This document shows positions 2,183-25,372 of a DNA stretch of 28,529 bases, piece by piece (positions within the stretch are counted from its first letter, which is position 1; each line of letters begins with the position of its first letter). The stretch is from a virus. The stretch covers positions 1-28,529 of IMG/VR virus record IMGVR_UViG_3300009182_000249; one strand, 5' to 3'. A model generated the notes under the pieces. That model searched no databases, was not told the origin of the DNA, and saw nothing but the letters and a program-made list of their open reading frames with translations. The position numbers were made by a program, and so were the translations under genes.

Positions 2183-3709
2183 GTGGCTACCTTCCTCAAC
2201 ATGGGGCGGTATGGGGACATCGTATCGTTCCTGCCTGTCCTAAAGAATGAGTTTGATACAACGGGTAAGAAGCCTAGCCTAGTTGTTGCCAAAGACTTTG
2301 CGGACATACTGGATGGTGTTAGCTATGTTGAACCTATCGTCTATGATGGGGCATTTGATGACATCACAGGGGCATTAGAATACCTCAAGACCCGAAATGA
2401 AGCGGCAACTGCAACCCAAGTTGTCGGCATCCCTGATGTTTTAGTCGGTCAGGTTTACGGAAAGCATCATGGCCCCCAAATCATCTGTGACTCATTCCAG
2501 CAAGATGCTTGGAGGCTAGCAGGGAAGCTAGACCTCTGGCCTAGCCAACCTCCGCTGGTATTTGATCGACGGGACAAGAAGCGGGAGGAGAAACTCATCA
2601 AGGAGATCCCCAAGAACAAGCCGTGGATTGTTGTCTCAACTGGCGGGACATCCTCGCCCTTCCAGTATTCTGAATTGCTGTGGGAGATCCTGAACCATTC
2701 CTTGCCAGAGTTCCACATCGTTGATCTGGGAAAGATCAAGGCTGAAAGGTTCTACGACTTGCTTGGCATCATGGATCATCCCAATACCCATGCGATGATC
2801 TTGACCGATAGTGGGCCGCTACATCTCTCATACGCCACACAGAAGCCTGTTCATGCCCTTGTGACAGATTCCCCCTATTCATGGCATGGAGCTGCGTGGA
2901 GACCATCCTACGCATCCTATACACGCTATAAGAACTTCCCACGGGATGTGACTAGGATCTTGGGGTTGATTCGGGGGGCTAGACCAAAAGCGATTTACAA
3001 GAACATTGTTCATGTCTATCAGAAAATGCCTTGGGCAAATCAATACGAGAAGAAGAGGAACGAGATAGCAGAAAAGACTTGGAAGACTATTGGATGCGTT
3101 GATTTGGGATTGGATGACAACTGTTTTGTAAGAACATCTGCTGAAGTAATACCTTCGGAGACCCGTAAGATACCCATGATTAAAGATATGATTCGATTGG
3201 CTTGCGTGGGGCGTGATGATGAATCGGTTATCCTGCTGACAAATACGGACACTTGTGTTGCCAGCAACTTGATCCAGAGACTGGAGGGAACTCTTCCTGC
3301 TTATTCTTATCGTCGTGACTTCAAGCGTATAGATGAACCAATGCATCATGATGAGATAAGTTCCGGGTCAAAGTATGCAGGGTGTGACTTCTTTGCTTTT
3401 AGGGTGGGATGGTGGAGACGCAATCACCATTTGTTCCCTGATATGGTTTTGGGAAGGCATTCCTGGGACCGTCTGATGCGGGAGTTGTTCAAGATAGCTA
3501 ATGGTCGGGAGATTGAAGATGTAATCTACCATGAATGGCATCCCTCGTTATGGGAGGGTGTTGAATTGCAGAGAGATCCCTCTAACCTACGCAACTGTAA
3601 GCTGGCAAGGGAATGGTTAATTGAAAGGAAGATTCCGCTAGAAGAACTAGAGCATCTTAACTACGAGGGTAAGTTCAAGCGTCCTGACTTTAGCAGATTG
3701 AGAACGTAG
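2183..3709 (+). CDS. Two-domain glycosyltransferase: GT9/heptosyltransferase-like domain plus second GT-like domain
   Basis: Residues 1-260 match the GT9 (ADP-heptose:LPS heptosyltransferase-like) fold: an N-terminal strand followed by the MGRYGDIV loop (7-14), and DSGPLHLSYATQKPVHAL (209-226), the nucleotide-sugar-binding signature of that family. Residues about 270-508 look like a second, GT-A-like domain with an N-T-D-T segment (354-357) after a hydrophobic strand, where a DxD-type metal site is expected, and FPDMVLGRHSWDRLM (418-432). The GTG at 2183 is preferred over the ATG at 2201 because it retains the first beta strand of the GT9 fold. Likely role is transfer of sugar to a surface glycan or a virion/host product; the substrate cannot be read from sequence. 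Its 3' end overlaps the convergent FkbM gene by 20 nt. Confidence 0.75.
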   Translation: MATFLNMGRYGDIVSFLPVLKNEFDTTGKKPSLVVAKDFADILDGVSYVEPIVYDGAFDDITGALEYLKTRNEAATATQVVGIPDVLVGQVYGKHHGPQIICDSFQQDAWRLAGKLDLWPSQPPLVFDRRDKKREEKLIKEIPKNKPWIVVSTGGTSSPFQYSELLWEILNHSLPEFHIVDLGKIKAERFYDLLGIMDHPNTHAMILTDSGPLHLSYATQKPVHALVTDSPYSWHGAAWRPSYASYTRYKNFPRDVTRILGLIRGARPKAIYKNIVHVYQKMPWANQYEKKRNEIAEKTWKTIGCVDLGLDDNCFVRTSAEVIPSETRKIPMIKDMIRLACVGRDDESVILLTNTDTCVASNLIQRLEGTLPAYSYRRDFKRIDEPMHHDEISSGSKYAGCDFFAFRVGWWRRNHHLFPDMVLGRHSWDRLMRELFKIANGREIEDVIYHEWHPSLWEGVELQRDPSNLRNCKLAREWLIERKIPLEELEHLNYEGKFKRPDFSRLRT

Positions 3710-4379
3710 CGGTAATATCCCATCTGACAGAATCTTCTTCTCCAATAGAAGTAACTATTTTGTAACCTAATTCAATTAATGGATTGTAAATATCAGATTT
3801 AGAGAACCCGGCTCTAGTAAGCATATCTGGATATACTTCACAAATAATAATAGGCTTATGCTTATTGATTATATTCTTTGCTCCTTGAATCACAGGAGGC
3901 TCGTAGCCTTCACAATCAATTTTAATTAGATCAATGGAAGGGAATTTAGCAAAGTAATCATCTAGTCTTATGCTTTTCTTTCCATTCTCATCTGATTTAA
4001 TGGTTCTTGTTCCAGGGTTACCATTCATGGGGTCTTGATTTACTGAAACCAAATCACCATTCCCAACTGCATCATTGATTGCAACAATATTGGCGTTGCT
4101 CTTAAATGCATTATACTCCATGCAAAAGAACGCATCCTCTTGCGGTTCAAAAGCATAAACTTCTGCTCCTTTTTTGGAAAATATAAGAGCCGTGTCACCA
4201 ATAAATCCTCCCACATCAATAACAACATCACCTGATTTAAGGGATTTTACCTCTGCAAGGTCAGCAATAGAATGCTCTAGGCATATTGTTCCATGCTTTA
4301 ACGCTTCTGGAGTAAGATTCTGATCATCCGAAAGGCAAATCATTTTCTCGTTAATTCGAGTAACTTTGTATTGGTTCAT
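3690..4379 (-). CDS. FkbM-family SAM-dependent methyltransferase
   Basis: 229 aa. SAM-binding motif I is VIDVGGFIGDTALIF (53-67), followed by the acidic end of strand 2 (AYAFEP-type, VYAFEP 74-79). IDLIKIDCEGYE (149-160) is the hallmark of FkbM-type O-methyltransferases. These enzymes commonly methylate sugars or secondary metabolites. It is the last gene of the leftward block and converges on the glycosyltransferase gene, so both may act on one glycan (inference). Markedly more AT-rich than its neighbours, which suggests separate acquisition. Its start shares ATGA with the stop of a 49-aa gene upstream, so translation is probably coupled. Confidence 0.85.
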   Translation of the reverse strand: MNQYKVTRINEKMICLSDDQNLTPEALKHGTICLEHSIADLAEVKSLKSGDVVIDVGGFIGDTALIFSKKGAEVYAFEPQEDAFFCMEYNAFKSNANIVAINDAVGNGDLVSVNQDPMNGNPGTRTIKSDENGKKSIRLDDYFAKFPSIDLIKIDCEGYEPPVIQGAKNIINKHKPIIICEVYPDMLTRAGFSKSDIYNPLIELGYKIVTSIGEEDSVRWDITATFSIC

Positions 4380-6177: not shown

Positions 6178-6371
6178 TGGATTACATCAATGGCCGCATT
6201 GATTGCGTCATGGATCTTTAGGCTTTTGCCTAGCGAGTTGAGGAGATGGATCTCACTCAAGACATTCTCTAGGTATGCCAGTTTGCTGTTCAGTCTGCTT
6301 ATCTCCTGACAAAGAGACTCCTTCTCTCGGTCAAGACAATTCTGTTCGTCTTCGTTGTATATGTTTGTCAT
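6174..6371 (-). CDS. Short coiled-coil protein (65 aa)
   Basis: Almost entirely helical, with heptad-like spacing of leucines (residues 18-50). It has no recognisable catalytic motif. Its ATGA overlaps with both neighbours and its helix-rich character suggest it may pair with the adjacent 152-aa coiled-coil protein (inference). Function unknown. Confidence 0.6.
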   Translation of the reverse strand: MTNIYNEDEQNCLDREKESLCQEISRLNSKLAYLENVLSEIHLLNSLGKSLKIHDAINAAIDVIQ

Positions 6372-6835
6372 GGTTTTAGGGTTGCTAGGTATTTTCTTTG
6401 TACTGGTTCTATGTCTTCTTCAAAAGAAGAATCAATGAATTGAGGTGGGTAGCCTTCCTCAATCTTCCATGCTCGATATGCATTAGGGTCTACGCTGGAG
6501 GTTGATCCTTTGAATATGGGCTTCTGGATCTTTTGGGATAGAACAGAGTGGTCTATTCCCTCGTCCTCCCAACGGCCTTGGTTTAACCAAGTGCTAGGGT
6601 TGGGTATAAACTTGCCTCCCTCCTTCTGCCAATCAGGAGATGCTATGCTCTTCTTGAGTGACTCAAGGATGATCTCTATTGCCGGGAACTTCTTCCGCTT
6701 CCAAATGTCGTGACAATAGCCTTTCCCTGTCTTTCTAGGGTAAGCCTTCCAGAACACCTCAAAATCGCTTTTACGGGCATTCTGGGGTGAATATGACTGA
6801 CCACAGTGAGGACAGAGTTCTTCAGAATTGCTCAT
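6368..6835 (-). CDS. Phage replication-protein C-terminal-type domain with N-terminal zinc ribbon (155 aa)
   Basis: Residues about 25-95 carry the pattern FEVFWKAYPRKTGKG ... FIPNPSTWLNQGRWEDEG, usually found at the C-terminal end of phage replication initiators and replisome-organiser-like proteins. Here it is free-standing and preceded by a short CPHCGQSY zinc-knuckle half-site at residues 8-15. No HTH initiator domain is fused. Known family members often recruit or load helicase, so a replication accessory role is plausible. Located 3 nt from the DUF1064-like endonuclease gene. Confidence 0.65.
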   Translation of the reverse strand: MSNSEELCPHCGQSYSPQNARKSDFEVFWKAYPRKTGKGYCHDIWKRKKFPAIEIILESLKKSIASPDWQKEGGKFIPNPSTWLNQGRWEDEGIDHSVLSQKIQKPIFKGSTSSVDPNAYRAWKIEEGYPPQFIDSSFEEDIEPVQRKYLATLKP

Positions 6836-8495: not shown

Positions 8496-8687
8496 TTAGG
8501 GAGAGATAAATCCCTCCACTAGAAGATATTCCATGACTTTCTTTGCTTGTGCAGAATCTGATGGTTTGTTATCTGTTGTCATCGCAGAGAAGTTCCCATC
8601 TGCTTTTGTGATGATAAGCCAATCACGCCCACGGTATCTGATTCCAAGAGCGTATTGTTCATCAGTTTCGTTTGATGGATGGTTCAC
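8496..8687 (-). CDS. Small hypothetical protein (63 aa, GTG start proposed)
   Basis: The C-terminal part (YALGIRYRGRDWLIITKADGNFSAM) reads as a compact beta-rich domain. The frame extends upstream to 8879, but that portion overlaps the nuclease gene and is low-complexity K/Q-rich, so a GTG at 8687 is proposed, overlapping the nuclease stop by 26 nt. The start is uncertain. Function unknown. Confidence 0.45.
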   Translation of the reverse strand: MNHPSNETDEQYALGIRYRGRDWLIITKADGNFSAMTTDNKPSDSAQAKKVMEYLLVEGFISP

Positions 8688-9723
8688 CTGTTGTTGTTTC
8701 AATGAGCCATCCAAGGTCTGATTCAAGGGAGGATTTGAGTTCCTTTCCTTTTTTCCCTGTTGCTTTTCCGTATGCTTTTTCAAGAGCCGTGATGCTAATC
8801 TTTGAACAAGCCATGACATCATCAGGTTTAAGAACACTAGACAACGCAGATACAACGGCACTTGTGTCTGTGGAAACATTCCTGATTGTGCGCCCTTCTG
8901 TTAGGGTTCGTCCAGCGAATTGTTGCCCTGCGATCATCCTAGCCTTCATCTCCTTCCTGACCTCATCAATGAAGTCCAGAACGACCTCGGCTTTCTCGTC
9001 AATCGCCAAAATCTCCTCGTTTGATAGTTGGGGAACAACGGCCTTTGAGACAACCTCTAGCTCTTTATGCGCCCCACGAACCTCTGGACAAATGCTTTTA
9101 GCACGACACCATTTACAAGCATCTGGACTAGGAGTTCTGACAGCATCATGCTTTTGTGAAGCAGTAACGATGCCAACGATCTCCTGCTCTGCTTTGATGA
9201 GATCCTCCTCATCGTATTGGGCAATGGTCTTGCCAGCGGCTAGGGGTTGGATTATCGCAACAAGGATCGTCTTGAGTTGGGGGAAGGATTTCTTGACTAG
9301 GACGGCATAGGCTCGGAGTTGGTAGTTTTCAGCAGCCCCTGATTGAGCTACACGCCCCGTCTTGTAATCAGTAACGACTGCTGTGTCGTCCCCAAAGAAG
9401 TCGATGCGGTCGATAGCTCCAGAGAAGAGATCATCATACCAGAATCGCTCTTCGATGACCTCCCTTGTTCTCTCGCCTAGATCCAACTGACCGATCATCT
9501 CGGAGAATTGGGAAAGACAACGAGTTGCGATGTCTTGACCATCTTCTGTGAGTGACTCGTAGGGTTTTGTTCCCGCTAGGACGGCGTGGACATCCGCTCC
9601 TAGTGCCATGTATTTGTTCTCCTCTTGCGGAGGGAGTGTCTGCTCTAGGTTCCATGAACCTGGGCATAGGGCAAGTCGGGAGAATCCGCTTGCTGAAGGC
9701 TTTCCGTTACGCTCGTCAGTCAT
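8662..9723 (-). CDS. DUF2800/Cas4-like PD-(D/E)XK nuclease
   Basis: 353 aa. Early residues SASGFSRLALCPGSW match the DUF2800/RecB-family N-terminus. The core has GAIDRIDFFGDD, then VVTDYKTGR (D...DxK active site) and ENYQLRAYAVL, the QxxxY motif. A later C-K-W-C-x5-C cluster (CKWCRAKSIC) suggests an iron-sulfur or zinc clasp as in Cas4/AddB-like nucleases. Such proteins pair with annealing proteins as 5'-3' exonucleases in phage recombination, and a RecT-like gene lies 365 nt upstream. The start at 9723 overlaps the upstream stop by 8 nt (ATGACTGA). Confidence 0.8.
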   Translation of the reverse strand: MTDERNGKPSASGFSRLALCPGSWNLEQTLPPQEENKYMALGADVHAVLAGTKPYESLTEDGQDIATRCLSQFSEMIGQLDLGERTREVIEERFWYDDLFSGAIDRIDFFGDDTAVVTDYKTGRVAQSGAAENYQLRAYAVLVKKSFPQLKTILVAIIQPLAAGKTIAQYDEEDLIKAEQEIVGIVTASQKHDAVRTPSPDACKWCRAKSICPEVRGAHKELEVVSKAVVPQLSNEEILAIDEKAEVVLDFIDEVRKEMKARMIAGQQFAGRTLTEGRTIRNVSTDTSAVVSALSSVLKPDDVMACSKISITALEKAYGKATGKKGKELKSSLESDLGWLIETTTGEPSIKRN

Positions 9724-9898
9724 TGGATTTAATCTCTTGGATAAAGTGTTTTTTCCCGCAAACTCCACAACATCCATATTTATCTATGAAGTCTTTTGCA
9801 GACTCTGCTAATTGTCTTGTTGAGTAATCAATGGATTTGATGCATGACCTCAATGTGTATGTGATGTTTTCCATTATAGTTGTCTGTTTATCAGTCAT
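9716..9898 (-). CDS. Small zinc-knuckle protein (60 aa)
   Basis: Mostly helical, with a Cys pair motif CCGVCGKKHF at residues 43-52. It ends in S-N-D, like the next gene upstream. It sits between two identical 8-nt ATGACTGA overlaps. Function unknown; it may be an accessory of the recombination module. Confidence 0.6.
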   Translation of the reverse strand: MTDKQTTIMENITYTLRSCIKSIDYSTRQLAESAKDFIDKYGCCGVCGKKHFIQEIKSND

Positions 9899-10091
9899 TG
9901 GATGTTTTGTTTAAAGCGAGATAGATGGCATCAAGGGCAATAATTCTAGCCTCTTCAGGGCTGATAATTTCTGCATCTTGCAAAGAGTTTAGAGTTTCAG
10001 AATTGCGAAAGATATTCCAAAAATCAAAAGCTTTAAGGACGTGCGTAGACGCAAGTGTAGCGGCTAATGCTTTTTTGTTTTTACGGATCAT
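9891..10091 (-). CDS. Small helical hypothetical protein (66 aa)
   Basis: Starts MIRKNKKALAATLAS at 10091, in an ATGA overlap with the RecT-like stop. The sequence is a single helical domain with an EEARIIALDAIYLAL helix. No family recognised. The position between annealing protein and nuclease suggests co-expression with both. Confidence 0.6.
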   Translation of the reverse strand: MIRKNKKALAATLASTHVLKAFDFWNIFRNSETLNSLQDAEIISPEEARIIALDAIYLALNKTSND

Positions 10092-10891
10092 GAGAGTGCT
10101 GGTTTGAAGGCTAGAACATCGTCCCATTTCTCACAGATTCGAGCGATGACCTTGGGGTTGACATCCTTGAGGAGAACGCTCCTGTCCTTAATTGCCTTTT
10201 TGGCGATCAAGAACTCAATGACATGAGAGTCTTCAATCCCGGCATCCCACATCAGGGATGAGAGTGTAGTCAGAGGGTCTTGTGCCTCTGCTGCTTTCAT
10301 GCTTGCCTCTACAAGCTCCGCAACAGTAGGCACAGCGTCTTCAATTGCAATCACCGGGGCTTCCACCTTGATCTCTGGCTTCTCAACCTTGATCGGTTTC
10401 GCATCAAAGTCCTGAACCTCTTCAGCGAGATAGACTCCATTAAGGCAAGCAGGGTAGATCGCCCTGACAAGCTCGGCAACGCATCTGCTAGAAAGCATAG
10501 CGGTTGGGTATTGCTTCCAGTTCTGCTTGCTGGTCAGTCCAGCGGCTTGCGCCCTGTCCCATGTCCAAGTGACTTGGAGAGTTCCACCAGCGGGGTGCTT
10601 GCCCTCTATGGTGCATTCCTTATCGGATCTGGTGATCCATTGGATTGTTCCCCCGGCTTGTTGGAATCGAGCTAGGCAAGCCTGACTCTTGAGTGCAGGA
10701 CGGCCTTGGATGACATCATATTCAGCGCAAATGCTGGCGAATGGCTTGTTCTCTGAAACTGCTAGGAGTCCTAATGCTAGTGCCTGTTCTGGGCTTTTCA
10801 TCCCGAATAGACCTGACTTTGCGATGGCAACTGCCATCTTTTCCATGTCTCCCATCGATGGTTGACTAGATACCGCTAATGTGTTATTCAT
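10088..10891 (-). CDS. RecT-like single-strand annealing protein (probable)
   Basis: 267 aa. The central region (about 20-165) has the layout of RecT-type phage annealing proteins: SGLFGMKSPEQALALGLLAV, then PFASICAEYDVIQGRPALKSQACLARFQQAGG, and a later NWKQYPTAMLSSRCVAELVRAIYP followed by L-x-G-V-Y-x-x-E-E. The C-terminal third is acidic and helical and may contact SSB. Role: promotes annealing or strand exchange during phage recombination with the nuclease downstream. The ATG at 10891 follows an A/C-rich leader; an ATG at 10951 is in frame but lies within a hairpin. Family named from motif layout only. Confidence 0.65.
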   Translation of the reverse strand: MNNTLAVSSQPSMGDMEKMAVAIAKSGLFGMKSPEQALALGLLAVSENKPFASICAEYDVIQGRPALKSQACLARFQQAGGTIQWITRSDKECTIEGKHPAGGTLQVTWTWDRAQAAGLTSKQNWKQYPTAMLSSRCVAELVRAIYPACLNGVYLAEEVQDFDAKPIKVEKPEIKVEAPVIAIEDAVPTVAELVEASMKAAEAQDPLTTLSSLMWDAGIEDSHVIEFLIAKKAIKDRSVLLKDVNPKVIARICEKWDDVLAFKPALS

Positions 10892-10931
10892 GTTTTTGTT
10901 GGGTGCTTGCGTGGTTGCTCTGCTCCTGGTA

Positions 10932-10965
10932 GCTCCGTATGGGTTGTTCATGTCCCATACGGAGC
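10932..10965. repeat. Perfect 12-bp inverted repeat, 10-nt loop
   Basis: Arms GCTCCGTATGGG and CCCATACGGAGC. It lies between the 52-aa basic gene and the RecT-like gene, in the RecT-like leader. There is no following U-tract on either strand, so it is not a simple terminator. It may be an RNA processing/regulatory hairpin or a protein-binding palindrome. Confidence 0.75.
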
Positions 10966-10976
10966 ATTCCAAGAAG

Positions 10977-12064: not shown

Positions 12065-12241
12065 TCAGTTAGAAGTTGTGACTATTGCATTTGTTTTCGT
12101 TTCTTGCAAACCTTTTTTTGCAGGTAATGAAGATTTATATCTGGGCTTGCAGAGGTTCCAGTTGTGGTCTCTGAATAGGTGGAGAAGGAAAGGAGGCCAA
12201 TCCAGATTGGGTCTCTCTCCGTTGTAGGTTGTTGTTTTCAT
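12065..12241 (-). CDS. Small hypothetical protein downstream of the methyltransferase (58 aa)
   Basis: NLDWPPFLLHLFRDHNWNLC is an aromatic-rich segment, and the C-terminus is basic (KPRYKSSLPAKKG) then polar. The ATG at 12241 is in an ATGA overlap with the methyltransferase stop, so it is almost certainly translated with it. It may be a partner of the methyltransferase (inference from position only). Confidence 0.65.
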   Translation of the reverse strand: MKTTTYNGERPNLDWPPFLLHLFRDHNWNLCKPRYKSSLPAKKGLQETKTNAIVTTSN

Positions 12242-13824
12242 AGGTTTGTTAATTCTTTTAGAAGAGTTCTGAAGGCCAGGGTTGCTGTTGCTGGAACAAC
12301 TCCGTTTCCGAGGAGTCGGAGTTCGTCTGTTCGATTGTCACAGGAGATGCAGAGTTCTGAATAACCTGACTCCCAAGACGTAGGATCTTCTTGCCATTGC
12401 TGATCTGGTATCCCGTGTGGTTCTTGCATTCCGGGGTCATCCAGCTCTCCCCACCCCTCTGATGTTCCTGATTTGCTTGCGGGGTCACAGGAGATGTACA
12501 ACTCGGCATAACCCATCCCACAGGAAGATTCATCAAAGTTTCTACCCAACGAGGGTTGAGTTTGCCTTGATTGTTCTGGGCATGAATCGCCTGACTGCTC
12601 AAAGGTAGGTGTAGATTTACCCCCTTGGTTGCTTGAAATGCTGCTCTCTTGCTCCAAGACTCCCAATCCTCCCCAGATTTGTGATCCCGGCTCTGGGGCG
12701 TTGCCCATTTCGCTTGAATCTCTGGATTGCTTAACTTGAAGTTTATTGATCCCTTCTCTTTCCATGATTTGCTCGTCGGCTGAGATGTATGGTCGCTCGC
12801 TGACGGGGTCGGAAACATCTGCTCCCTCCTGCATTGATCCCCCAATGGAATACCCCCCTTGTTGTTGGGTCGTGAGTTGTCCGTTGCCCCGGCTCTTGGC
12901 GTTGCCCATTTCGCCACATGATCTCGTAGCTTGTATTTCCCTGCTGTCCCCTCCCTCATCTCCATGATGCCGCCCTCTCCATCCGAGGAGCTTGGAGTTC
13001 TCCACGACTCTGGGCGGTTCCCACTCGTATTGGGGTTGCCCTGGTCGGCTAGGCCAGATGCATAGACTGCTCTTGCCAGTTGATCCACTCGGTTCCCGAT
13101 CGTTCCATCCGGGTTGACTCCAGTTTGAGACATCCCAGGGGAGTCCTTGTGATCCCTCGTTGATGCGGTGGGCCAGTTCTGGGGATTGACTATGCAACTC
13201 TCCAAGTCCCTGCCTCGTTTCCCATCGTAGACTCGACCAGTCCCCGTGTTCGTGTGAGTGGGCCAATTCGCGGTAGGCCAAGATGAAGACTCTTTTCCTT
13301 TGATGAGGTGCGCCGACTTCAGACGCACTAAAAACTCCTGCCGTTGCTTTGTAACCCACTCTCTCCAATTCTCGGAGGACATGGAGCAGAACCGGTGTTC
13401 CTGCTGGATCTCTCCAGTTGTCTCCTGACAACTTTGCGGACAAGATTCCTTCAACGTTTTCAAGGAAAACAACGGAAGGTCTGCATCTTCTAATGCCGTC
13501 CAAAATGTAGGGGAAGAGGTGGCGGGGGTCTTCATCTCCATCTCGCTTTCCTGCACAACTGAATGGCTGGCAAGGGAAGCCTCCAGAGAGGATGTCCACT
13601 CGGTCACGAAACGACTCCCAAGGCAGGGTCTTAAGATCCGTCCAGAGAGGTGCTGCGTCCAAGAGTCCCGCTTCCATTTTGCTGACCAGGTTCGCACAGG
13701 CGAAACCTTCGATCTCAGAAAACAAGATTGTGCGAAGGCTTGGGATTGCTCGTTTGAGTCCGAGATCAATCCCTCCGTATCCTGCACAGAGGCTAACGTG
13801 TGTAATTGTTTGGGAAGTATCCAC
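12238..13824 (-). CDS. C5-cytosine DNA methyltransferase with long Gly/Ser-rich insert
   Basis: 528 aa from a GTG at 13824. Motif I is SLCAGYGGIDLGL (11-23), the catalytic P-C loop GGFPCQPFS (81-89, Cys85), motif VI ENV (122-124), motif VIII GAPHQRKRVFILA (171-183) and motif X LLGNGVVPATA (504-514). It transfers a methyl group from SAM to C5 of cytosine. The region between motifs VIII and X is about 310 residues, polar and repetitive (L-A-H-S, M-G-N-A, M-G-Y-A starts), far longer than a normal target-recognition domain. This region is also open in a second frame. The in-frame ATG at 13893 overlaps a membrane microprotein gene and is less likely as start. Likely protects phage DNA from restriction. 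Confidence 0.85.
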   Translation of the reverse strand: MDTSQTITHVSLCAGYGGIDLGLKRAIPSLRTILFSEIEGFACANLVSKMEAGLLDAAPLWTDLKTLPWESFRDRVDILSGGFPCQPFSCAGKRDGDEDPRHLFPYILDGIRRCRPSVVFLENVEGILSAKLSGDNWRDPAGTPVLLHVLRELERVGYKATAGVFSASEVGAPHQRKRVFILAYRELAHSHEHGDWSSLRWETRQGLGELHSQSPELAHRINEGSQGLPWDVSNWSQPGWNDREPSGSTGKSSLCIWPSRPGQPQYEWEPPRVVENSKLLGWRGRHHGDEGGDSREIQATRSCGEMGNAKSRGNGQLTTQQQGGYSIGGSMQEGADVSDPVSERPYISADEQIMEREGINKLQVKQSRDSSEMGNAPEPGSQIWGGLGVLEQESSISSNQGGKSTPTFEQSGDSCPEQSRQTQPSLGRNFDESSCGMGYAELYISCDPASKSGTSEGWGELDDPGMQEPHGIPDQQWQEDPTSWESGYSELCISCDNRTDELRLLGNGVVPATATLAFRTLLKELTNL

Positions 13825-13826
13825 AT
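12258..13826 (-). CDS. Overlapping same-strand frame with W-x-T-P repeats (522 aa, or 374 aa from 13382)
   Basis: Open for 522 codons in a different frame from the methyltransferase. Residues 1-148 look like a shadow of it, but from MSSENWREWVTKQRQEFLVR (149 on) the product becomes protein-like: seven repeats around W/F-x-T-(P/A)-x-x-x-D at about 183, 217, 275, 306, 338, 373 and 462, e.g. NWPTASTRDHK and KWATPQSRDHKSG, then LNPRWVETLMNLPVGW (423-438). I recall phage proteins with such WPTP repeats and an LNPxWVExLMG tail encoded next to or within C5 methyltransferases. An internal ATG at 13382 would give 374 aa. Whether it is translated is not established. Confidence 0.4.
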   Translation of the reverse strand: MWILPKQLHTLASVQDTEGLISDSNEQSQAFAQSCFLRSKVSPVRTWSAKWKRDSWTQHLSGRILRPCLGSRFVTEWTSSLEASLASHSVVQESEMEMKTPATSSPTFWTALEDADLPLFSLKTLKESCPQSCQETTGEIQQEHRFCSMSSENWREWVTKQRQEFLVRLKSAHLIKGKESSSWPTANWPTHTNTGTGRVYDGKRGRDLESCIVNPQNWPTASTRDHKDSPGMSQTGVNPDGTIGNRVDQLARAVYASGLADQGNPNTSGNRPESWRTPSSSDGEGGIMEMREGTAGKYKLRDHVAKWATPRAGATDNSRPNNKGGIPLGDQCRREQMFPTPSASDHTSQPTSKSWKEKGSINFKLSNPEIQAKWATPQSRDHKSGEDWESWSKRAAFQATKGVNLHLPLSSQAIHAQNNQGKLNPRWVETLMNLPVGWVMPSCTSPVTPQANQEHQRGGESWMTPECKNHTGYQISNGKKILRLGSQVIQNSASPVTIEQTNSDSSETELFQQQQPWPSELF

Positions 13827-18055: not shown

Positions 18056-18601
18056 ATGACCAAGAAAAATCTCCCTAGCGTTGCCAAGTTGTCACCAAAG
18101 CAAAGTCAGTTCATCAAATACCACTTGGAAGGCCTGCCATTAAGCAAGGCATATCTGTTGGCGGGTTATAAATCGAGTAGCATCGAGAATGCGGCAAGTG
18201 ATGCTTGTCGACTAATCAAGACTCCCAAAGTTTCCCAAGCGATTCAGCGAGCAAAGGAAATAGAGTGGGAAAAAACGGTCATGTCACTCGCCGAGCGCAA
18301 AGCGTTTCTTTCTAGCGTTGCCAGAACTCCCGCTGGACAAGTGGACAAGGATTCTCCACTCTGCCAGGAATACAGTGAGGACGTAGATCAAATGGGCAAT
18401 GTTAAAAAGCGAGTAAAAATGCCTAGCAAATTAGAGGCAGTTAATATCCTATCCAAGTTATCAGGGGATTATGAAGGAAAGAGCGGGGAAGTTGTGAATC
18501 CGTTCCTTGCCATCGTGTCCTTGTTCAGCAGCCAACCTGGCACTTTGCCAGCTATGCCGGAGCGCCAGGTTATCGATGCGGAGCTGTTGCCGGGAGACTA
18601 G
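18056..18601 (+). CDS. Terminase small subunit
   Basis: 181 aa. LSPKQSQFIKYHLEGLPLSK followed by AYLLAGYKSSS and a later ACRLIKTPKVSQAIQRAKE is the typical N-terminal helix-turn-helix of phage TerS proteins that bind the packaging site. The middle is a helical oligomerisation region, and the C-terminal tail, rich in P and E, may contact TerL. It is about 4.8 kb from the large subunit and on the other strand, which is unusual. Confidence 0.8.
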   Translation: MTKKNLPSVAKLSPKQSQFIKYHLEGLPLSKAYLLAGYKSSSIENAASDACRLIKTPKVSQAIQRAKEIEWEKTVMSLAERKAFLSSVARTPAGQVDKDSPLCQEYSEDVDQMGNVKKRVKMPSKLEAVNILSKLSGDYEGKSGEVVNPFLAIVSLFSSQPGTLPAMPERQVIDAELLPGD

Positions 18602-18801: not shown

Positions 18802-19044
18802 ATGGATAATAGAGAGTATAGAAAGGTGGTGATGAACCTGCGATACCCCGCCAGTGAGCGTAATAAGCCAAGTATAATGCTTTTGAGGAGTCTGGCTATG
18901 GAGTTGGAGTTGGATGCTGGCAATGCGCCTGGAGGCTATGGTGGGATGAAGATGGAAAGGCAGAGGTTGAGTGATGCATTGAAAGAAAAGATAGATGATC
19001 CTAGACTATCTGATTGGGATCGGGATATGATTAAGGGACTATGA
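18802..19044 (+). CDS. Small hypothetical protein (80 aa)
   Basis: Charged helical protein (YRKVVMNLRYPASERNKPS, MERQRLSDALKEKIDD). Start preceded by the A/C-rich leader ACAACAACCTAACC. Its stop overlaps the next ATG by ATGA. Function unknown. Confidence 0.6.
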   Translation: MDNREYRKVVMNLRYPASERNKPSIMLLRSLAMELELDAGNAPGGYGGMKMERQRLSDALKEKIDDPRLSDWDRDMIKGL

Positions 19045-19403
19045 ACGAGGGAGAATTTCTTATCACGTTACTGAATGCTGCGACTATTGGTCATGTGTTG
19101 CATTTGCAGAGTCGGAGTTACTCGGAGCATAAGGCATTGGAGACGTTCTACACGGCGTTGCCTGATTTGGTTGACCCTGTGATTGAGGCTTGGCAGGGAA
19201 GGAATGGTCAGTTGATTGAGTATCCTGACCAGACTGTGGAGTTGAGCGAGTATAAAGATGCCTTGGAGTTTGTGATGTTCTTGAAGATCTTGGTTGAGGA
19301 AGATCGGTATGTGCTTGGGAATGAGAGTGAGATCCAGAATTTGGTGGATGACATTGCCCAGTTGATTGACTCAACGATTTACAAGTTGACCTTCCTTAAA
19401 TAG
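19041..19403 (+). CDS. DUF5856-like phage protein (120 aa)
   Basis: LNAATIGHVLHLQSRSYSEH followed by KALETFYTALPDLVDPVIEA and WQGRNGQL matches the pattern of the small helical phage family I know as DUF5856 (name from memory), whose helical bundle recalls Dps/ferritin-like folds, though ferroxidase residues are not evident here. ATGA overlap with the preceding gene. Function unknown. Confidence 0.65.
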   Translation: MNEGEFLITLLNAATIGHVLHLQSRSYSEHKALETFYTALPDLVDPVIEAWQGRNGQLIEYPDQTVELSEYKDALEFVMFLKILVEEDRYVLGNESEIQNLVDDIAQLIDSTIYKLTFLK

Positions 19404-23397: not shown

Positions 23398-25320
23398 TCA
23401 AAATCCGTCATCATCACAACCCCTTCCTCCATACCCCCAATCCTCTTCCATCTGCTCTTCTTCCACATTGTTTTTGCTGTGGATCAATTTGTTCTCCCAA
23501 TCCCTGATCTCAAGGATGTCTAGTGATTCTGTTTCCTCTTCAAAGTTAAACTCTAGTCCTGCCCTACGGAGCATCTGGACAGCATAGGTCAAAGAGTCAG
23601 CCAAATCGGGCGACTTCTTCAAGCGTTGCTTCATATCCAGTTTTTTCTCAACTGCAACCTTCCTGCCCTTGTGGTAATAAAGACGACTACAAAGCTCGTT
23701 TACGACTTGGGAGTGGGCATCTACATTGATACCTACCAATGACCTTGTGGAGAATGCCGTGTGAACTGCAAACCAATACTCGGTCACTAATCGATCATAG
23801 GCTTCTTTACAGGTTCGCTTATCAAGGTTGCTGATCTTCCGTTCCGTAGGCATTCCCATTGAGGAAATGGGGAACAAGAACATTGCCTCTGGATGGTATT
23901 TGCTCCACTCGATGATAATTGCCCTCATCATTTTTCCACCATCACCAGAAATATCCAAACCAAAGTCCCTTGGGTGGACTCCATACTCAATACAATCCTT
24001 GACCAACTGGATTGCTATGGATTCTTCAAACACATCACCCACAGATGAGGAGTATTCTCTAGTTCCGAGGTAAAAACCTATGTTTCTGCCAGCATCATTC
24101 TGACCAAATCGGCAAAATGATGCCGCACATCTATCTCCACCAGCTGTAAATGCCGGGTCAAATCCGCAAACTACCTTGGTTCTGCCTTTCCAGACAGGTT
24201 CAAAGTTTAAATCACACCCTGCAATGAATGCTTTGGAGAAAATGGTAAGCTCAACAGAGTTATCAGGCCACCATCCATAGACATTTCGCCAATACTCAAG
24301 GGCATTTTTGTTCCCGTAGCATCGTTTTAAGGTATTTGTTTCTCCTTGAATTGTAAGGAAACGATCAAATGGGGGGATTTCCGCATCAGGTAGCTTAAAA
24401 TTGGGGCTATCTTCTCCCGAAAGGTGTAATGCAACCCCTGTGCGAGTCTTCCACTTCTTTGTGTAACGATTTACTGACTCCCATTCCATAGGATCGTCAG
24501 GTTGGCACAACTCTGTATGGGGGTTATTGGCAGTTGCCGCTGGATTTGCCATTCCTCCAAAGATGAAGTCAGGATTTGCCCCAAGGTTGACCCTGGTATC
24601 CAATGCGTAGAGATCCATTTCCGCTAACTCATCCAAAAACAACCTCATTCTGGCATTCTTACGACCTCTGGTATTCTCAACGGCTCGTTTTCCCTCTCCG
24701 CCTTTAGGGAATGCCAATGCTTTGATGGCATTTGTGTAATCTCGTTCTGTATCTTTGGTATCAATACTCTCAAAAACAATCATCCTTCGATACTCAACAA
24801 GATTTCCAATGGATGCCCCCTTGTATTGGGCTTGGATGTTACGCATTGCAATCCTGTAAAGGGTGCAAACTTTACCCCAAAGTCGATCCTCTGAAGCGTC
24901 CAGAGATGTTGATGCCACATAGGTTGAGGTAACATTTGGGGCGCAAATCCAATCAATCACAATGCAAGCAGCAACAGAAAAGGTTTTTCCGCTGGATGCA
25001 CAACCAGCAATTCCCCAATCATTCTCATTGCAGAACAAATCTATGATGTCCAAGGCATAGTTGTTGGGAATCCCTTGGGATTGGAGCAAAACATCATTAC
25101 CATAAATCAAGTTGAAGCAGTTGACCATGTGCTGTGCAGGGTTCATCAGGTCAGTATCCTCAATCCTGATGCCTCGCTTTATCCTTTCCCGGCGACCAAA
25201 CTCCCCACGAGTATAAACATACGCCATTAACTCCCGAATAAACTGTGGGCTACTCTCAAAATATGGGATGCCGTATGTGGTGTCTTTTGGCGTGTCCAGA
25301 CAAAGACCGTTATAAATCAT
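23398..25320 (-). CDS. Terminase large subunit (packaging ATPase/nuclease)
   Basis: 640 aa from the ATG at 25320. Walker A GCASSGKT (106-113), Walker B RLFLDELAEMD (226-236) with catalytic Glu, then an RNase H-like nuclease with GFDPAFTAGGD (386-396) and DFGLDISGDGG (452-462), and a late SPDLADSLTYA segment that supplies the last acidic residue. This is the motor that drives DNA into the procapsid and cuts concatemers. It reads leftward, while small terminase and portal read rightward, so it must have its own promoter in the 52-nt divergent gap. Confidence 0.9.
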   Translation of the reverse strand: MIYNGLCLDTPKDTTYGIPYFESSPQFIRELMAYVYTRGEFGRRERIKRGIRIEDTDLMNPAQHMVNCFNLIYGNDVLLQSQGIPNNYALDIIDLFCNENDWGIAGCASSGKTFSVAACIVIDWICAPNVTSTYVASTSLDASEDRLWGKVCTLYRIAMRNIQAQYKGASIGNLVEYRRMIVFESIDTKDTERDYTNAIKALAFPKGGEGKRAVENTRGRKNARMRLFLDELAEMDLYALDTRVNLGANPDFIFGGMANPAATANNPHTELCQPDDPMEWESVNRYTKKWKTRTGVALHLSGEDSPNFKLPDAEIPPFDRFLTIQGETNTLKRCYGNKNALEYWRNVYGWWPDNSVELTIFSKAFIAGCDLNFEPVWKGRTKVVCGFDPAFTAGGDRCAASFCRFGQNDAGRNIGFYLGTREYSSSVGDVFEESIAIQLVKDCIEYGVHPRDFGLDISGDGGKMMRAIIIEWSKYHPEAMFLFPISSMGMPTERKISNLDKRTCKEAYDRLVTEYWFAVHTAFSTRSLVGINVDAHSQVVNELCSRLYYHKGRKVAVEKKLDMKQRLKKSPDLADSLTYAVQMLRRAGLEFNFEEETESLDILEIRDWENKLIHSKNNVEEEQMEEDWGYGGRGCDDDGF

Positions 25321-25372
25321 GTGCAATAAGAATTGACAAATTTCTAAAAAGAATGCAAATCATTTACGCAAC

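Follow-up and report, generated by a model that had tools for sequence, protein, structure and literature searches.

A phage C5-cytosine methyltransferase gene with a conserved second gene nested in its +1 frame, probably encoding the two chains of one split enzyme

The C5 methyltransferase M.EaeI is naturally split into alpha and beta chains, and the multispecific methyltransferases of Bacillus phages carry several target-recognition units between motifs VIII and IX of a single chain. In M.EcoHK31I, the gene for the beta subunit presumably lies within that for alpha, in a different frame. The large subunit of this enzyme contains motifs I–VIII and X and the small subunit motif IX, and M.AquI also consists of two chains, encoded as tandem subunits, with the catalytic motifs in alpha and motif IX in beta (PMC3404938). 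Modular target-recognition units appear, to judge from the titles of papers cited in PMC8936443, in the multispecific Bacillus phage enzymes SPR, phi3T, rho11, and H2 and in M.phiBssHII. The ShiLan domain is an HNH homing endonuclease that a phage methyltransferase gene encodes in a frame other than its own (PMC11855218).

We analyzed a stretch of viral DNA of 28,529 nucleotides (the window), in which a C5-cytosine methyltransferase gene, frame A (alpha), is overlapped over nearly its whole length by a second frame on the same strand, frame B (beta; Table 1). A first-pass annotation had reported 2 long same-strand frames of 528 and 522 codons, with methyltransferase motifs in the former and W/F-x-T-P/A-type repeats together with the segment LNPRWVETLMNLPVGW in the latter; ORF calls recover both frames, and the repeats and the segment lie at the places described. 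Its span of 12258–13824 combines the end of B with the start of A, and its observation that repeats of frame A lie over those of frame B holds for ELAHS, ELAHR, EMGNA, and similar segments, but M-G-Y-A lies near a repeat rather than exactly on it.

Table 1. Positions of the features in the window.
Feature	Position	Strand	Remarks
Frame A (alpha), C5-cytosine methyltransferase	12238..13824	-	GTG start at 13824, 528 codons, stop at 12238-12240; motifs I-VIII and X, without motif IX
Frame A catalytic (large) domain, motifs I-VIII, residues 7-188	13261..13806	-	AlphaFold; Foldseek; omega_A 0.25/0.11
Frame A "insert," residues 202-496	12337..13221	-	weakly constrained; across the frame-B cassette array
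Frame A motif X helices (RTDELRLLGNGVVPATATLAFRTLL)	12241..12333	-	pLDDT 69-97 in the last three blocks; omega_A 0.18/0.07
Frame B (beta), nested in the +1 frame of A	12258..13826	-	ATG start at 13826, 522 codons, stop at 12258-12260
Paired starts, ATGTG	13822..13826	-	ATG opens B, GTG opens A, 2 nt apart
Frame B cassette 1 (WPTANWPTHTN...)	13176..13280	-	
Frame B cassette 2 (WPTASTRDHKDSPG...)	13005..13175	-	includes GLADQGNPNTSGNRPES over the conserved frame-A segment WPSRPGQPQYEWEPPRVV
Frame B cassette 3 (WRTPSSSDGEGGIMEMREGTAGKYKLRDHVAK)	12909..13004	-	common to L019, L011, L008, L044, L081, L085
Frame B cassette 4 (WATPRAGATDNSRPNNKGGIPLGDQCRREQM)	12816..12908	-	94% identical in L050; catalytic domains 53%
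Frame B cassette 5 (FPTPSASDHTSQPTSK...)	12708..12815	-	
Frame B cassette 6 (WATPQSRDHKSGEDWESW...)	12567..12707	-	
Frame B motif IX-like segment (LNPRWVETLMNLPVGW)	12513..12560	-	conservation and line-up with Dcm
Frame B cassette 7 (WMTPECKNHTGYQISNGKKILRLGSQVI)	12360..12443	-	after motif IX; in relatives the same cassette precedes motif IX
Second small methyltransferase (phrog_8156)	3693-4379	-	
Replication initiation	6371-6835	-	
Exonuclease	8665-9777	-	
RecT-like annealing protein	10091-10972	-	
Terminase small subunit	18056-18598	+	
Starvation-type regulator (phrog_858)	19041-19400	+	
Terminase large subunit	23401-25326	-	weak match

Frame A belongs to the C5-cytosine methyltransferases: Pfam family PF00145 matches it over motifs I–VIII (E 4.2e-35), and the motif residues PCQ (IV), ENV (VI), HxRxR, and GN are invariant in an alignment of 42 homologues. 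The catalytic domain was modeled by AlphaFold, from an input alignment that left out rows from named phage records, with pLDDT mostly >90 (confident over residues 1–188), and Foldseek matched frame A to M.HhaI (E 7.5e-13), aligning ~186 columns with a target of 327 residues. The C-terminal end matches positions 293–319 of phrog_1008. Residues 202–496 have pLDDT <50 almost throughout, and this insert is predicted to be disordered in alpha. AlphaFold and Foldseek yielded no small domain for frame A, and a motif IX-like segment is absent from frame A in every locus examined; motif IX and the candidate target-recognition (small) domain are located in frame B rather than in the same chain as the catalytic motifs.

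The open frame B is not explained by the protein that frame A encodes. When the codons of frame A were permuted synonymously, with its protein and codon usage held fixed, none of 2000 trials reached the observed frame-B run of 524 codons (mean longest run, 207), and frame C stood at chance level (longest run 70 vs. a permuted mean of 71). The same permutation at 17 other loci had a similar outcome, with 0 to 7 of 2000 trials reaching the observed run, and the earlier assessment that a chance open frame of this length is very unlikely is borne out. More than 100 viral homologues likewise keep frame B uninterrupted along almost all of frame A, and their frame C contains about 10 to 40 stops. A profile search detected a B homologue in the +1 frame at all 120 viral loci (~109 of them distinct by their first 400 bases), a proportion that applies to this lineage and not to all C5 methyltransferases, since the proteins of the window served as queries to collect the loci. 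In 114 loci, the match extends over motif IX, and Escherichia coli K-12 dcm, used as the negative control, gave no B match; both points carry weight, given that a conserved catalytic domain translated in its +1 frame could yield mutual matches even where that frame is noncoding.

Frame B is a real, widely conserved second gene that most annotations have overlooked. It is also found in annotated phages, prophages, or plasmid-borne relatives of Salmonella, Klebsiella, Pseudomonas, Bacteroides, Paenibacillus, Lacticaseibacillus, Mycobacterium, Acinetobacter, and E. coli. A genome scan with the window B protein returned just one bacterial locus, as fixed peptide patterns seldom occur elsewhere, and in the plasmid search the B protein of locus L057 gave 1 weak match and that of an E. 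coli prophage gave 5, 3 of which covered at least 80% of the query. A compact form resides in the E. coli PT62 prophage (L131, 1391–2150), where an annotated alpha of 245 aa and an unannotated beta of 251 aa begin at GTGAATG, with one WPT cassette and motif IX; another E. coli relative (L130) is marked as a pseudogene and has an internal stop.

The B proteins are recognized by phrog_1008, a phage "DNA methyltransferase" family, the C-terminal end of which is the part that motif X of frame A hits in the window; the profile matches frame B of the window (E 4e-16) and each of 55 B proteins analyzed (best E 2.4e-43). No Pfam family matched any of these 55 proteins at E 0.01, NCBIfam and PADLOC scans of B returned no domain, a PDB sequence search with the B profile produced no match, and AlphaFold prediction of beta alone, using the compact B of L057, gave no confident fold (pTM 0.24). 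The motif IX-like segment contains columns L, P, V, M, G, P, and W, each at least 90% conserved among the 55 proteins, and its pattern, L-x-P...E-x-L-M-x-x-P-x-G-W, aligns with motif IX of Dcm (RRLTPRECARLMGF), at a similar distance upstream of motif X. As no Pfam model recognizes beta, the label "motif IX" rests on by-eye alignment, conservation, and the fused form described below.

Selection on the 2 frames was estimated from 39 independent pairs, each substitution being classed as synonymous or nonsynonymous in each frame and divided by the opportunities. Over motifs I–VIII, these simple pairwise estimates, which are approximate because they include no multiple-hit correction and assume a kappa of 3, gave an omega_A of 0.25 and 0.11 and an omega_B of 0.70 and 0.32 in 2 backgrounds. 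In the insert, where the counts come from in-phase aligned parts only, given the differences in array size, omega_B was 0.235 (bootstrap 0.17–0.31) and 0.15, and omega_A was 0.72 (0.52–0.94) and 0.47; at motif X, omega_A fell at 0.18 and 0.07 and omega_B at 1.6 and 0.65. Constraint is therefore ordered along the gene from A (motifs I–VIII) to B (insert) and back to A (motif X), with the switch from A to B occurring near motif VIII. Substitutions in the insert are concentrated at the first position of A codons, which is the third position of B codons (rates.178/.052/.065 per A-codon position), and among pairs with 75% to 90% identity in B, shared cassettes are more alike in B than in A in 140 of 148 cases (mean 0.83 vs. 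0.53). In the window, the segment at approximately 13032–13085, where WPSRPGQPQYEWEPPRVV in frame A lies over GLADQGNPNTSGNRPESW in frame B, is conserved in both frames and was probably selected twice.

From this relay of constraint it follows that the insert of the methyltransferase is mostly coding region of B, and the disorder that AlphaFold assigns to it in A agrees. The first-pass annotation, which had treated the insert as an enlarged methyltransferase domain, was right that the second frame is open there, but the insert chiefly encodes the product of the second gene. The dual-coding region with a second product that it had also envisaged is supported by the open +1 frame in homologues and by frame-B selection in the insert, and the outcomes it had named as refuting, scattered stops in the second frame of homologues and purifying selection confined to the methyltransferase frame, did not appear: homologues keep B open, and purifying selection in the insert acts mainly on B. 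The direction of selection, together with the existence of separate and in-frame fused B blocks, rules out its other suggestion, a repeat array that does no more than leave both frames open. That frame B is untranslated altogether, and has stayed open by chance because the repeat array and the codon usage of the insert avoid stops, we regard as hardly credible and as refuted by the pattern of substitutions: the array is indeed repetitive, and GC-rich wobble positions reduce stop density, but synonymous permutation never yields the open frame of the window, substitutions in the insert follow the codon periodicity of frame B, cassettes are more alike in B than in A, and tandem forms of the locus use the B frame alone.

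The repeats noticed in frame B mark an array of cassettes. W/F-x-T-P/A/H sites have their first base at positions 13280, 13265, 13175, 13004, 12908, 12815, 12707, and 12443 of the minus strand; FWTA at 13505 also matches the site pattern but lies within the catalytic overlap. The W-x-T-P units are modules of 25 to 50 residues with conserved ends and variable middles, and among close relatives the array contains from 3 to 7 W-x-T-P sites. When the 303 modules from 79 B proteins were clustered, they formed 150 clusters, and 204 of the 331 similar pairs occupied different array positions. Furthermore, 28 pairs of modules at least 75% identical belong to loci with catalytic domains less than 60% identical, and cassette 3 recurs in L044, the catalytic domain of which is only 38% identical to that of the window. 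The locus thus has the exchangeable modular units between motifs VIII and IX that characterize the multispecific type, and the shuffling of cassettes between phages suggests a changeable or multiple specificity.

Poly-C/poly-G tracts of at least 8 are about eleven times commoner in this gene than in the flanking phage DNA (0.121 vs. 0.011 per kb). Such tracts were found in L034, L037, and L040 (568–577 from motif I), compared with L022 and L027 (571–579), and also in L045, L047, L049, L009, L052, L060, L091, and L121. A difference between C9 and C10 in one cassette changes the frame that holds motif X and cuts the cassettes and motif IX off from their start; it may represent either phase variation or a homopolymer sequencing error.

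Each of the 2 frames is conserved, purifying selection acts on them in complementary segments, and in other genomes the B block exists as a separate gene or as part of a fusion. In mycobacteriophage Arissanae, gp80 (motifs I–VIII) is followed in tandem, with a short overlap, by gp79, which contains TPTARD cassettes and motifs IX and X, and Gordonia phage Upyo has the tandem pair gp54/gp53. In gp70 of mycobacteriophage ShiLan (L139, 1489–2655), the catalytic domain, LPTP cassettes, and motifs IX and X are joined in one frame, and several viral contigs have motif X in the B frame rather than in A. These tandem, fused, and nested arrangements indicate that the catalytic, cassette, IX, and X parts belong together, and their simplest reading is a C5 methyltransferase of two chains, with motif X variable in its position and motif IX accompanying the cassettes. 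ShiLan gp70, which has a residual B-like segment in the +1 frame upstream, is distinct from ShiLan gp65, the methylase gene with the published out-of-frame HNH insertion. For Upyo gp53 (L142, 1029–2291), the open frame and the B profile match continue through gp54 for ~500 nt ahead of the annotated start, which may therefore be placed too late.

The starts of A and B lie 2 to 8 nt apart in 83 of 116 loci, the offset from B to A being −2 in 46, −5 in 22, +4 in 7, +7 in 4, and −8 in 4, and the paired starts often stand behind one Shine–Dalgarno-like sequence; upstream of the paired starts of the window, no clear Shine–Dalgarno sequence was found. In other loci, B starts internally, ~130 to 190 nt downstream, several times with a Shine–Dalgarno-like site of its own (GGAGGTG in Redbud). 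The first eighth of the catalytic region, an internal control, reflects these positions. In the window clade, where B starts at the start of A, both frames are constrained there (omega_B 0.16/0.20, third-position rate 0.117), whereas in distant relatives, with a mostly later B start, omega_B is 0.94/0.70 and the third-position rate is four-fold higher (0.47). The fixed close registers of the starts, and the sites preceding the internal ones, make independent initiation of B likely, as opposed to frameshifting.

A programmed frameshift would have ribosomes start in A, shift to B after motif VIII, and continue through the cassettes and motif IX to produce one fused protein, and the proximity of the A-to-B switch in constraint to motif VIII would fit such a scheme, as would the known single-chain fused relatives. 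We nevertheless consider it very improbable. B has its own start, paired with that of A or internal with a Shine–Dalgarno-like site in several loci; B of the window clade is constrained even upstream of motif VIII; frame A remains open across the whole array, which frameshifting would not need; and the strong selection on motif X in frame A would call for a second shift back.

Since B carries the motif IX that is missing from A, together with a cassette array resembling target-recognition units, the 2 products probably form one enzyme. We consider it highly likely that a single stretch of DNA encodes a split C5 methyltransferase, with motifs I–VIII and X in alpha and target recognition and motif IX in the nested beta. 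Beta is very probably the partner that tells the enzyme core which sequences to mark. In the mechanism we propose, a single ribosome-loading site would, in most relatives, serve 2 start codons separated by a few bases; the alpha and beta chains would then assemble as one enzyme, beta supplying the small domain absent from alpha, and alpha would read through the coding region of beta as a disordered linker leading to motif X. Exchange of cassettes would alter or multiply the methylated sequences, its most likely purpose being to shield phage DNA from host restriction.

Alternatively, frame B could be a real nested gene with a function unrelated to methylation, such as a hidden selfish homing endonuclease or an anti-restriction protein. 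Out-of-frame HNH genes within phage methylases have been described (PMC11855218), and the cassettes are mobile among phages. This reading is improbable, however, as B lacks any Pfam, NCBIfam, or PADLOC domain and, unlike scattered homing elements, is present in every homologue tested; moreover, motif IX is in B and absent from A, and the B block is joined in frame to the catalytic domain in ShiLan gp70, with motif X coming next, and motif X likewise comes after it in Arissanae gp79. Extending the split-enzyme reading beyond this locus is tentative: it is possible, although we would not presume it, that many of the C5 methyltransferases of phages, a large share of the total, consist of two chains encoded by one dual-coded gene, with exchangeable target-recognition cassettes that have to be open in 2 frames simultaneously, and that they provide multispecific and, where the array contains poly-C/G tracts, switchable methylation against host restriction.

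Near-complete overlaps of more than 500 codons on the same strand, with selection measured on both frames, are rare. With its relatives in E. coli, Salmonella, and Klebsiella, the two-chain model lends itself to direct testing in laboratory strains, and the cassette array constitutes a natural library of probable target-recognition modules. Because the nested subunit has been overlooked in many annotations, methyltransferases recorded as single genes may prove inactive or mis-specified if cloned alone.

Among the described systems, nesting of beta in another frame, as found at the window locus, is presumably shared with M.EcoHK31I. In loci of the window type, the start of beta usually lies within a few bases of that of alpha, beta contains up to eight exchangeable cassettes, and the selected cassette (candidate target-recognition) region is in the beta frame, in all of which they differ from M.EcoHK31I. 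The motif layout is alike, with motifs I–VIII and X in alpha and motif IX in beta, when the 2 are compared by the layout given in PMC3404938; counting against the likeness, the target-recognition domain of M.EcoHK31I is assigned to the large subunit, whereas our proposal would place target recognition in the small one. The layout of M.AquI is matched by those relatives that have motif X in beta, namely L078, Arissanae gp79, and Upyo gp53; the window differs from M.AquI in having motif X in alpha and genes that are nested rather than tandem. The multispecific Bacillus enzymes may be regarded as analogous in their modular units, which in their case are in a single chain and in the window are in a nested second frame. 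With the ShiLan domain, the window has in common a second protein encoded out of frame, while the host methyltransferase frame stays open, but that domain has a patchy distribution, and frame B has no endonuclease domain, HNH included, and is present in every relative tested. In Paenibacillus larvae phages, the same nested +1 gene has already been annotated as a CDS (Redbud gp51, "g50 internal gene," and Tadhana gp54/gp55), labeled as hypothetical or as a second methyltransferase, with no mechanism given in the literature we found. Our literature search for nested or overlapping phage methyltransferase genes, which covered few subscription papers, returned nothing on this arrangement beyond ShiLan and EcoHK31I. 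As far as the literature searched goes, the breadth of the nesting, the relay of selection between the frames, the staggered starts, and the exchangeable cassettes in a dual-coded stretch are new.
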